Of a stretch of DNA of 64,000 nucleotides, positions 3,003-63,774 are shown piece after piece. The position numbers and the translations under genes were made by a program. Below the pieces are notes generated by a model. It worked only from the letters and a program-made list of their open reading frames with translations, had not been told where the DNA came from and did no database searches. Source of the DNA: Halolamina rubra (GTDB lineage: Archaea > Halobacteriota > Halobacteria > Halobacteriales > Haloferacaceae); assembly GCF_000739555.1 (NCBI RefSeq), contig NZ_BBJN01000005.1:1-64000 (forward strand). The letters run 5' to 3'. Each line of letters opens with the position of its first letter. The stretch's first letter is position 1.

Positions 3003-4808
3003 TCAGTTCGGCAGTTCGTCCCGCAGCCGCCGTAGTTCGAACACCGCGTCGTTCTGTGCGCGCTGGAGCTCGACCTGGAGGAACCGGTACTCGTCGTCGC
3101 TCTCGTCGTACACGTCGAACAGCGACGTGTTCTCGAAGCGCGGGTACGGCGGCCGGTTGTAGGCGGGGTCCTGCTCGAACTGGCCGTCGCTGACGAAGTT
3201 GAGCCGCGTCAGCGTCCGCGAGAGCGTCTTGATCGTCTCGTTCGCGACCTCGTGATCGATCTCGCCGGCCTCGACGGCGTCGTAGAACGCGTCGACGGCG
3301 TCGGCGACCGAGTCGAGCGCCTCGAGCGTCGGGCCGAAGTCGAACGCCTCCCCCGCGAGGTCGTCGTAGTCGGCGACGATCGAGCGGTGGCGCTCGACGT
3401 TCCGGGCGTGGTCGTGGGGCAGCACGTCGGCACGGAGCAGGCGCGAGACCAGCACCGCGTACATCTGGATGTCCCTGATCAGTTCGGGCTTGCCGGCCTT
3501 GTCGATCGTGTCGGTGCTGAGGTGCCAGGCGTCGGCGTTGCCGCCGCAGCCGCCGACGGTGTGCCAGCGCATCGTCTCCCGCACGTCGGCAGGGATGTTC
3601 GAGGAGAGCGTGAACGCGCCCGAGAGCCCGAGGTTGTTGAACGAGTAGTCGCCGGCCCGCCGGGGCCGGTTCTCGCTGTAGGGCGCCCCCGTGGCGTCCT
3701 CGATCGCCCCGGCGACGACGCCGTGCATCTCCGGCATCCAGCAGGCCATGTCGACGTACTCGGTGGAGCCCTTCGCGCCCGGGCTGTCCATGTCGACGTG
3801 GGCGACGCAGTCCTCGACGAGATCCATCGCGAACTCGTCGGCGTACCAGGTCGAACCGGCGTAGCGACCCGTCGAGTGGCCGGGCCACCAGCACACGCGG
3901 AGATCGCGCTGGAGATCGTCGCTGTGTGCGTCGAACACGCGGGCGAGTTCCAGCAGGCCGGCGTCGCCCGTCGCGTTGTCGGCGATGCCGACCGCCCAGG
4001 AGTCGTAGTGGCCGTGGAGGAGGACGAAGTCGTCGTCGTCGGGGTCGGCGTCGCCGGCCTCGATCCGCGCCTCGACGATGGGGCAGGCCATCCAGTCGGT
4101 CGTCGTGTCCGTCTCCAGGGTGACTTCGTGGTACTCGTCCGCGTCGGCGTACGACCGCAGTTCGTCGCCGTCGGGCCGGGTGACGTTCGCGATCGGGAGG
4201 TCGGGGATCCGCTCCTTCTCGTCGTAGGGGGGCGCGCCACCCCAGACGGAGGTGGCGATCCCGTCGTGCGGTTCGCGCTCGTTCTCGTGGATCGCGATCA
4301 CGCCGGCGGCGCCTTTCTCCTCGAGCACCCGGGTCGCCCGGATCGAGAGGCTCCCGGCCGCGGTGAGCGCGATCTTCCCGGAGAGGTCGCCCACGTCGGC
4401 GTAGGGTCGCGTGACGTTCACCGCGTGGTATTGGCTCCCGTCGTCGGCGCCCACGTCGCTCTGCTCGGCCTCGCCGACGTAGACGAGCTCGCCGGTCACC
4501 GCCCGCGCCGCCGAGAACGCGACGGTTTTCACCGGCCCCGGCTCGAAGACGCCGTCGTCGACGGTGATCGACGCGCTGTGGGGCTGACTGATGTAGAGCT
4601 CCGGGTCGTAGCGCTCGTAGTCGACGCCGAATTCGTCGAGGCGGCCGGTGAGGTACTCGGCCGCGCGGCGCTCGTCTTCGGTGCCCGAGACGCGCTCGAG
4701 ATCGGCGAACTCCTCGAGGAGGGCCCAGGGTTCGTCGATCGACACCGCGTCGGTGAGCCGTGATTCGTACTGGTCCAGCGACTTCTCGCCGGTGCGCTGC
4801 TGAGACAT
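3003..4808 (-). CDS. M28-like metallopeptidase with PA domain (paralog 2)
   Basis: A 601-residue protein closely similar to the one at 8-1783 over its whole length. It has the same N-terminal helix region with SRLTDAVSIDEPW, a PA-like insert, LLHGHYDSW, DNATG, WWPGHSTGRYAGSTWY, DMDSPGAK and WHLSTDTIDKAG. The EE pair of canonical M28 enzymes is again HS. No signal peptide or membrane segment is visible, so a cytoplasmic role on imported peptides is likely. A TATA-like box lies about 26 bases upstream of the start. The gene is transcribed alone, convergent with the enolase-superfamily gene. Confidence 0.9.
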   Translation of the reverse strand: MSQQRTGEKSLDQYESRLTDAVSIDEPWALLEEFADLERVSGTEDERRAAEYLTGRLDEFGVDYERYDPELYISQPHSASITVDDGVFEPGPVKTVAFSAARAVTGELVYVGEAEQSDVGADDGSQYHAVNVTRPYADVGDLSGKIALTAAGSLSIRATRVLEEKGAAGVIAIHENEREPHDGIATSVWGGAPPYDEKERIPDLPIANVTRPDGDELRSYADADEYHEVTLETDTTTDWMACPIVEARIEAGDADPDDDDFVLLHGHYDSWAVGIADNATGDAGLLELARVFDAHSDDLQRDLRVCWWPGHSTGRYAGSTWYADEFAMDLVEDCVAHVDMDSPGAKGSTEYVDMACWMPEMHGVVAGAIEDATGAPYSENRPRRAGDYSFNNLGLSGAFTLSSNIPADVRETMRWHTVGGCGGNADAWHLSTDTIDKAGKPELIRDIQMYAVLVSRLLRADVLPHDHARNVERHRSIVADYDDLAGEAFDFGPTLEALDSVADAVDAFYDAVEAGEIDHEVANETIKTLSRTLTRLNFVSDGQFEQDPAYNRPPYPRFENTSLFDVYDESDDEYRFLQVELQRAQNDAVFELRRLRDELPN

Positions 4809-29493: not shown

Positions 29494-29880
29494 ACCCCGG
29501 CAGCTACCGTACCTGTGGTAGCTGTGGCAGCTACGGTAACTGAAGTAGCTAAGGTAGCTGAGGTAGCTGAGGTAGTTGCGGTAGTTACGGTACCTACGGG
29601 AGGCGATCCTCGTCCCCCGGCAGCTACCGCACCTGTGGTAGCTGTAGTAGCTACTGCACCCAAGCTAGCTGAGGCAGCTAAGGTAGCTGAGGTAGGTAGG
29701 GCATCTACCGTAGGTAGGTTACGTGCGGTAGTTGGAGCAGGTGGAGCAGTTGCGGTACTGCCCGCACCCGCGGTACCTACGGTAGTTGGAGCAGGTAAGG
29801 TAGCTAAGGTGGCTAAGGTAGCTAAGGCAGCCGAGGCAACGAAGTTGACGAAGGTAGATGAGGCAACTCGATCACCGTAG
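29494..29880. repeat. Degenerate 9-bp tandem repeat array (GTAGCTNAG family)
   Basis: The stretch is built from GGTAGCTNN units at a 9-base period, for example AAGGTAGCTGAGGTAGCTG, and is most regular at 29545-29580 and 29800-29835. There is a longer level of repetition: the block CCCCGGCAGCTACCG...CCTGTGGTAGCTGT occurs at 29496 and again at 29616, exactly 120 bases apart. Read on + the period gives Val-Ala-Lys/Glu triplets, but composition and position argue against a real protein. The array separates the peptidase operon from the tyrosine recombinase. A related short array in the other orientation is at 42608-42660. Confidence 0.85.
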
Positions 29881-29914: not shown

Positions 29915-31234
29915 TCAGGCGCGGTCGGCGTTCGAGGACTCCCGAACGCGGCCGTCCGTGTTCGAGAGCGCTTCCGTCGCCATGTCCGCGCGTTCGGCGG
30001 CCTCGATGTGCTGGTACGCCTGTCGGACCTGCTCCTCGCTGTTGTCGAGATACCGCGCGGCGGCGGCGTAGCCGAACTCCCGGACCATCACCTCGCCCAT
30101 CCCGCGGCGGCCGCCGTGGGGGGCGAGGTAGTCGTGGCGGTCGTCGTCGACGGCGATCTCGGCGTCCGCACACAGTCGCTGCAGCACCCGGCGCGCGCCG
30201 TTCGGTTTCAGCGCCGGCGGGGCGTCGAGGTCGAACTCGGCGGCGACGAGGAGATCCGGCTTCGCGTCGCGCTGTCTGTCGATCTCCGCGTCCGAGAGCC
30301 CCCGTTCCCGGAGCCCGGCACGCACGTGGCGAGCCAGCGTCGGGCGGTGGAGCGTCGTGAACACCGGCCACTCCGCGGGCGCGTCGAGCAGCTGGCGGTA
30401 TCGCCGCAGCGGTCCCAGCACGGGATCCGGGAGGGAGGCCTCGTCCCACTGCTGTTTCTTCCGGTAGACGGTGACGTTGTTGTCCGCGAAGGAGACGTCC
30501 GCCCAGCGGACACCGTTCCGTCCCGGCCGGTCGTCGTCGGCCGCGTTGAGGAACTCGGCGGCCCGGAGCCCCGTGTAGCAGAGCACGTACGCGAGCGCCC
30601 GCTCGCGGCAGCGCTTGTACGCGCGGAACCGCGCGGCGGCCTTCTCCCGGACGGCGTCGCTCTCGAGGTCGCCGCGTTCCTCGGCCGGCACCTCGACGGC
30701 ACCGAGATCGTCGATGGCCGTCGACGCCCGCTCGTCGACGAACCGGGTGAGCTGGTCGCGCTGCTCCGGCGACCACGCCTGCTGGTCGCCGGGGCGTCGC
30801 CCGGTTCCCTCCGGCAGCGGGTCCTCGGCGTCGGACTCCCGGGCGTAGTGGCGCGGCACGTACCCCTGGGCGTCGGCCCAGCCACACCAGGAGGCGACGT
30901 AGGCGTAGTAGGTGAGGACGGTGCTGTTGGAGAACCCCGAGACGACGAGGTAGCGTGCGTAGTCGCCGAACACCGTCGAGTCGAGGTCGGAGAACCGCAC
31001 GTCTCGGGCCTCACTCCCGGGGTTCGCGTCCCGAACGATCCCCTCCCACGCGTCGGCGGGCGACGCGTTCGCCGGGTCGGGCGTGTTCCCGCGACACCAG
31101 CGCAGGAACCGGTTCAGCTCCCGCTCGGCGTCGCGGCGGTAGGCGCCGTCGCTGCCGCCCTCACCCTTCCCCTTGTCGGTGAGGAACGTCGGGAACGTGC
31201 TGGCGATCGGCGTCGACGCGTCGCGGGCGCTCAT
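29915..31234 (-). CDS. Tyrosine recombinase / integrase (Xer-like)
   Basis: A 439-residue protein. The N-terminal SAM-like DNA-binding domain covers about residues 25-130 (AYRRDAERELNRFLRW). The catalytic domain has Arg224 in CYTGLRAAEF, Lys259/260, His373-Arg376/377 in APHGGRRG, and the nucleophile Tyr407 in QAYQHIE. The usual second His is Tyr389 (EFGYAAAARYL). I prefer the ATG at 31234 because residues upstream of it overlap the inverted repeat at 31353-31384 and look unstructured. No tRNA or matching element boundary is visible, so it may be a chromosomal recombinase rather than part of an intact provirus. Confidence 0.85.
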   Translation of the reverse strand: MSARDASTPIASTFPTFLTDKGKGEGGSDGAYRRDAERELNRFLRWCRGNTPDPANASPADAWEGIVRDANPGSEARDVRFSDLDSTVFGDYARYLVVSGFSNSTVLTYYAYVASWCGWADAQGYVPRHYARESDAEDPLPEGTGRRPGDQQAWSPEQRDQLTRFVDERASTAIDDLGAVEVPAEERGDLESDAVREKAAARFRAYKRCRERALAYVLCYTGLRAAEFLNAADDDRPGRNGVRWADVSFADNNVTVYRKKQQWDEASLPDPVLGPLRRYRQLLDAPAEWPVFTTLHRPTLARHVRAGLRERGLSDAEIDRQRDAKPDLLVAAEFDLDAPPALKPNGARRVLQRLCADAEIAVDDDRHDYLAPHGGRRGMGEVMVREFGYAAAARYLDNSEEQVRQAYQHIEAAERADMATEALSNTDGRVRESSNADRA

Positions 31235-31352
31235 CGTTCCCTCGAAAGCGACTGTATCGCCGGGTTCGCGGGCTGTCGAGGGGTGGAAGAGGGGTTGCGC
31301 ATCGTTTGGTGCTGGGGGTTGTTCGGGGGGACGGGGGCACTCACCAAAGAAC

Positions 31353-31384
31353 TTACGCACGCTTAGTGAGTTAAGCGTGCGTAA
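31353..31384. repeat. Perfect 13-bp inverted repeat with 6-bp spacer, candidate recombinase site
   Basis: TTACGCACGCTTA (31353-31365), spacer GTGAGT, TAAGCGTGCGTAA (31372-31384). Both arms match perfectly. The 6-base centre is the spacing used by Xer/dif and many other tyrosine-recombinase sites. It lies about 120 bases upstream of the recombinase start. It could instead be an operator for that gene. Confidence 0.7.
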
Positions 31385-63427: not shown

Positions 63428-63774
63428 CGGGGAGTAACCTGCCGAGGCACACTTATGTGCCTGCTGACAGTTACGGGTTCGCGGGCACCGTGGATACGTC
63501 TGGTGTTCACTCGAATAATCACGCTCCTCGTCGCGACGCCGAGTGGGAGACCCGCCGCGGCCGAGGGGGGCCTGGGCTCGGGGCCTCGACCGCGGCGGGT
63601 CCGCTCGATCCGGAATGCAGGTGGGGCGAGGGGGCGGCGAGGGGGAAGCGCCGCCCCGCTCGTCTGGGTCGGGATCGGGGGCGGAATCGAACCGAGACCG
63701 AACCCGGTCCGGTCGATTCCAGTTCTCCCTTGTGGTGGAACCACTATTGTAAGGGAGTCATTTCGGGGGGTGGA
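63428..63774. other. GC-rich gap, no supported gene
   Basis: Contains only the promoter of the wHTH gene and a GC-rich, G-tract-rich stretch. I see no convincing coding pattern, and a tRNA T-loop-like GGTTCGATT near 63690 has no matching stem. Confidence 0.4.

Follow-up and report, generated by a model that had tools for sequence, protein, structure and literature searches.

An inverted repeat with a hypervariable centre ahead of a pR1SE1-type tyrosine recombinase as a probable crossover site of haloarchaeal plasmids

Within the 64,000-nt stretch of Halolamina rubra DNA analyzed here (the window), a gene on the minus strand (29915-31234) encodes a 439-aa protein that the initial annotation had called a tyrosine recombinase. 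This call proved correct, as relatives of the protein match integrase models and the catalytic residues are conserved. R224, K259, H373, R376 and Y407 are kept across an alignment of 149 relatives, and the position usually held by H/W is occupied by a conserved N398. The window recombinase alone scores below the Pfam cut-offs; among 15 family members, 13 match Phage_int_SAM_5 (best 2e-9), 8 match Phage_integrase (1.2e-5) and all 15 match the phrog_1 integrase (9e-21). On sequence grounds, catalytic residues and domain models together point to membership in the tyrosine recombinase superfamily. A structure prediction from five sequences reached a mean pLDDT of only 52, too low for use. The recombinase of pR1SE2 is 64.4% identical over 98% of the window protein, which places the latter in the pR1SE1 group as delimited in PMC8371274 (at least 25% identity over 60% of the length), with the pR1SE2 recombinase taken as representative of that group.

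Upstream of the recombinase lies a leader mini-ORF of 23 codons (31231-31302, minus strand) whose TGA overlaps the recombinase ATG (ATGA), an arrangement shared by the subclade's Halolamina and Halorubrum loci, where the mini-ORF has 15-31 codons and starts 49-50 nt past the inverted repeat described below. Between this mini-ORF and the repeat, a gene-proximal flank (31303-31352, minus strand) is kept within subfamilies and possibly serves as a promoter and/or an accessory binding region. Directly 3' of the recombinase and before an M28 peptidase gene, we also observed an array of ~9-nt repeats of the GGTAGCTNA type (29499-29840, no strand assigned), iteron- or centromere-like in look; in Halolamina plasmid pCBA1230-01 (L042), the corresponding gap contains about ten copies of the same word. 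The remainder of this side of the window (8-29409) holds five M28 peptidase-like genes (Pfam scans covered three of the five) in the neighbourhood of genes of the peptide ABC transporter, amidase and racemase types, which suggests a region devoted to the use of peptides or amides.

The inverted repeat itself (31353-31384) reads TTACGCACGCTTA-GTGAGT-TAAGCGTGCGTAA, confirming the perfect 13-6-13 design noticed from the sequence at the outset. It comprises a gene-proximal arm (31353-31365), which is the better conserved arm in the recombinase family, a 6-nt centre (31366-31371; GTGAGT on the plus strand, ACTCAC in gene orientation), which is hypervariable across the family and is the predicted overlap between cleavage points, and a gene-distal arm (31372-31384) that forms the outer edge of the conserved module; neither the arms nor the repeat as a whole were assigned a strand. 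The repeat does lie ahead of the gene, at a measured 118 nt from the start codon (31234) and not the 120 bases first given. It is the sole perfect inverted repeat in the window with arms of at least 13 nt and a spacer of 0-30 nt, so the remark that no other repeat was this long holds for perfect repeats, while imperfect but longer ones are present (e.g., 63549-63601 at 94%). In 60 dinucleotide shuffles, perfect repeats of this arm length arose at a mean of 0.27 per shuffled window, and none had a 6-nt spacer. This chance level is by itself modest, and the significance of the site therefore comes from its conservation beside homologues. A genome search for the arms, as the initial annotation had proposed, found the 32-mer once in the 2.96-Mb assembly (up to 3 mismatches allowed) and an identical copy in Halolamina relatives.

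To ask how the repeat fares beside homologous recombinases, we assembled 166 loci with 141 distinct upstream regions. A strong repeat with a 6-nt spacer lies within 300 nt of the gene in 73 of the 141 regions, compared with 1.4 in shuffles. Beyond Halolamina, whose loci carry the window's exact 32-mer, remoter homologues have a different repeat of like design, with inner TTA-N6-TAA and arms mostly of 12 to 16 nt, usually 79-159 nt upstream of the recombinase start and sometimes kilobases off. Several of the remaining homologues have their site 0.5-1.8 kb upstream with small genes between (pNRC100 at -1.8 kb) or farther, as in G287 at ~9 kb; about a dozen have none within a flank of roughly 1.5 kb, and for some of these it lies farther upstream (e.g., G092 and G362). 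The arms track the recombinase subfamily: TTACGCACGCTTA accompanies enzymes 87-100% identical to the window recombinase, TTACTTTGTCTTA those at 62-64%, GTGGTCNTGATTA those at about 50%, and further arm types those at 42-44%. Across 391 genomes of the order, the GATTA-type site occurs in 121 of the 150 genomes that carry the gene vs. 12 of 241 without it (p about 1e-57), and a reversed control pattern gives 0 matches in the same 391 genomes, compared with 133 genomes for the GATTA-type site. Among the genomes that have the gene and lack the GATTA-type site are that of the window and those of Halorubrum type, in which the arms are of another sequence. The arms are thus conserved beside homologues in the sense that sites with exactly 6-nt centres accompany the family, with arm sequences varying by subfamily, where absence of such conservation had been named as grounds for dismissing the site.

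We also considered the end of Halolamina homology, which falls within 13 nt of the gene-distal arm, at the outer edge of the site, as a recombination boundary. Since the Halolamina loci all share one centre, this end could by itself mark either such a boundary or the limit of a functional unit, and we set it aside. Two further observations concern sites away from any family recombinase. Haloarcula-like loci (L225, L226, L229, L234, L237 and L238) carry a second class of site with a perfect TAATCACGACCA arm, a weaker second arm and a centre ending in GA, with no family recombinase nearby; three of these have orc1/cdc6-like genes in their vicinity, and on two contigs such sites are spaced 39-40 kb apart. 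An IMG/VR contig that has a haloviral appearance and a terminase-like ORF (L224, around 3388-3411) carries GTGGTCGTGATTATTCAGATAATCAGCACCAC with no family recombinase on its 5.5-kb piece, possibly a virus using a plasmid site.

Conservation within the site is markedly uneven. In two subfamilies, the gene-proximal arm carries 1.75 and 1.95 bits per position vs. 1.56 and 1.75 for the distal arm, and in the GATTA type the centre retains 0.73 bits per position vs. 1.6 for the gene-proximal flank and 1.56 and 1.75 for the arms. Among locus pairs differing by less than 3% over 126 flank and arm positions (mean 1.8%), a set of pairs that are not mutually independent, the centre differs by 29.5%, diverging about 17-fold faster than the flanks on either side. 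One pair is identical at 126 of 126 flank and arm positions and has the centres TGCCAA and TGCCCG. Neither an operator nor a hairpin requires such a hypervariable centre, while the overlap of a crossover site is free to change provided that partners match or mismatch is tolerated. We also looked for avoidance of identical centres within one genome; co-resident sites shared a centre in 1 of 63 pairs vs. 3.3 expected, a difference in the right direction that is not significant (p = 0.14).

A natural recombination footprint was found in one genome, G420, whose contig C4 (558,567 nt) carries three direct sites: TTGATTATGATTA-CTCTGA-TAATCACGACCAA, GTGGTCATGATTA-CCTGAA-TAATCACGACCAA and GTGGTCATGATTA-CCTGAA-TAATCACGACCAC. 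These delimit a 113,253/113,254-nt unit present in two tandem copies of 99.99% identity. The unit holds parA, two orc1/cdc6 genes and one recombinase, and so has the appearance of an entire plasmid. Beyond the third site, the right flank belongs to a different recombinase module, and both unit junctions fall inside a 13-nt window running from the last centre base to arm position 12. For this single assembly, the most straightforward interpretation is that recombination at the site joined a plasmid to a resident replicon, where two copies of it now stand in a row. The two copies may be a genuine tandem dimer, or the assembly may have combined integrated and circular forms; in either case the joint is at the site. 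The parental centres differ at 4 of 6 positions. Classical Xer/Cre-type exchange would disfavour such unlike centres, and the recombinase may accordingly tolerate heterology, or the centre may have changed later.

Other duplicated sites were not counted as footprints. In G408:C6 (23679-54843; L204, L219 and L220), a 15.58-kb tandem duplication (99.99%) contains two intact direct sites and recombinases, and we rejected it as evidence of recombination at the site because its junction lies away from it; that G408 keeps two direct sites 15.6 kb apart implies that resolution is not always efficient or that the assembly is wrong. Same-contig duplicates in G119, G180, G287, G288 and G422 most likely reflect, judging from site spacing relative to contig size, the terminal redundancy that circular contigs show.

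The family is predominantly plasmid-borne. It appears in 264 plasmid records, and only 4 of 100 genome regions fetched with the recombinase come from contigs of more than 1 Mb, the bulk being plasmid-sized. In six of the seven plasmids read, parA lies ~0.7-9 kb from the recombinase; none is annotated near the gene in the stretch of pR1SE2 read. Chromosomal copies (e.g., G018:C1 and G173:C1) have one site and no flanking pair. We rejected a virus origin of the family, as it has no phage record and no relatives in IMG/VR. The enzyme and its site form a self-contained module that, in the family, resides chiefly on haloarchaeal megaplasmids and in most cases close to parA. The window contig (C67, 88 kb) may be plasmid or chromosomal: its near-identity to pCBA1230-01 is limited to the recombinase, M28 peptidase and racemase genes, and parA of the window genome, if any, is on another contig. 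PADLOC returned no defence-system match, and PLSDB held no second pR1SE record with an altered flank.

Collectively, the conservation of the site, the co-variation of arms and enzyme, the hypervariable centre and the G420 footprint argue that the repeat at 31353-31384 is the crossover core of the adjacent tyrosine recombinase, to which we assign a probability of about 0.82 from comparative sequence evidence. The initial annotation had left the choice between a crossover site and an autoregulatory operator open, and both the hypervariable centre and the 113-kb unit bounded by sites favor the former. As an operator, the repeat would be bound by a dimer of the recombinase or of another regulator that represses its own operon, with no recombination there. 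Its fairly fixed distance upstream of the gene or operon, the gene-proximal flank conserved in subfamilies and the mini-ORF starting ~50 nt away in the window's subclade mean that the site could overlap a promoter, and that autoregulation through the same site is possible. We nevertheless regard a purely regulatory role as improbable, as sites also lie 0.9-1.8 kb and once (G287) ~9 kb upstream of the gene, an operator has no need of a centre diverging ~17-fold faster than its flanks, and the junctions of the 113-kb unit fall inside the site. Operator and crossover roles can coexist at one site. Slightly less probable still is that the repeat is the attP of an element that normally integrates into and excises from the host chromosome. 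In its favor, integration into replicons has been reported for pR1SE (PMC10818511), whose recombinase is 64% identical, and the G420 unit sits integrated at a site of this kind; yet the window assembly and its close relatives have one site per genome, the chromosomal copies show no attL/attR pair, the genes sit predominantly on plasmid-sized contigs, and the partner in G420 is another module of the recombinase family and not a chromosomal attB.

Two simpler accounts of the palindrome fare worse. A consensus scan flags the site as terminator-like on the minus strand, with a T-rich stretch after it, but the site precedes the gene, and an RNA hairpin is largely refuted by the lack of a pairing constraint: arm position 7 pairs in only 18 of 62 GATTA-type sites with its gene-proximal base nearly fixed, and few double changes restore pairing, so that arm sequence and not pairing is conserved. 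We accordingly consider an RNA element very unlikely. A chance palindrome, for which the ~0.27 perfect repeats of such arm length expected per 64 kb with free spacer might speak, is refuted by the identical 32-mer in Halolamina relatives and by family-wide conservation with zero control matches in 391 genomes, leaving it a negligible probability.

If the repeat is a crossover core, each 13-nt arm would be bound by one recombinase subunit, and two sites would pair and exchange strands where each arm meets the 6-nt centre. With two sites in direct repeat, recombination by the module would resolve dimers and cointegrates of plasmids; with sites on separate replicons, it would fuse these. We infer the binding, the cleavage positions and the main role, for which resolution of dimers and cointegrates appears the likeliest candidate, somewhat better than even given a crossover site. 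Replicon integration or fusion as the role is a distinctly weaker prospect on the same premise, and may be an additional function or even the chief one.

The site is best understood as acting in the manner of dif or lox on megaplasmids, although membership tests show that it belongs to neither XerA/dif nor Cre/lox. As in XerA/dif of Pyrococcus abyssi (Cortez et al. 2010, PMC2958812), inverted arms flank a 6-nt centre in a single-copy site served by a tyrosine recombinase without a known partner. Among solved structures, the family profile also matches XerA best (E 0.0038), but the window protein scores 11.9 bits vs. an XerA equivalog cut-off of 220, family arms measure 12-16 nt (13 in the window) vs. 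11 nt in dif, and family sites sit mostly on plasmid-sized replicons near the gene, unlike the single chromosomal terminus site. The earlier description as dif-like thus holds for geometry and mode of action and fails for membership. Cre/loxP of phage-plasmid P1, in which dimer resolution aids maintenance, offers a second parallel: a plasmid-encoded recombinase adjoins a site with two 13-nt arms, although the loxP spacer is 8 nt and that of the window site 6 nt. No Cre chain appeared in phmmer or profile searches of the PDB (E up to 1).

The closest relatives of the window recombinase lie in the pR1SE1 integrase group, whose pR1SE2 member is 64% identical and which is confined to haloarchaea and found on plasmids (PMC8371274; pR1SE, PMC10818511). 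The available text of PMC8371274 describes the group as unconnected to other integrase families, and neither that text nor the open-licence literature yielded a crossover site or mechanism for it. The pdif sites of Acinetobacter plasmids, acted on by XerC/XerD (pXerC/D), are likewise plasmid-borne, have variable 6-nt centres and mediate plasmid fusion and resolution, with one fusion inferred between unlike centres (PMC9947245). Unlike the family described here, they are served by the host XerC/XerD, a different enzyme, and occur as several sites per plasmid. Tn916-type integrases, found on conjugative transposons, exchange strands between heterologous 6-nt coupling sequences. Exchange between different 6-nt overlaps would give both centre swapping and the junction pattern of G420; Tn916-type elements are conjugative transposons and not plasmid maintenance modules.

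Bacterial dif, cer and loxP keep replicons monomeric and resolve cointegrates, and a parallel for large enterobacterial replicons has been described (PMC11724359). Large secondary replicons are numerous in haloarchaea, and little is known of how they are kept as monomers, become fused or come apart. A defined pair of enzyme and site, recognizable in hundreds of plasmids, provides a testable candidate for the machinery involved and gives a site to a large group of recombinases that had been described as standing apart from other families. Such pairs could also supply orthogonal recombination sites for high-salt organisms. More speculatively, and with rather low confidence, the 6-nt centre might act as a fast-changing tag of replicon identity, with the recombinase tolerating unlike centres, such that fusion and resolution swap centres and shuffle the backbone beside the modules. 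If this were true, a centre-swapping recombinase module would drive the formation of megaplasmids and secondary chromosomes in haloarchaea.
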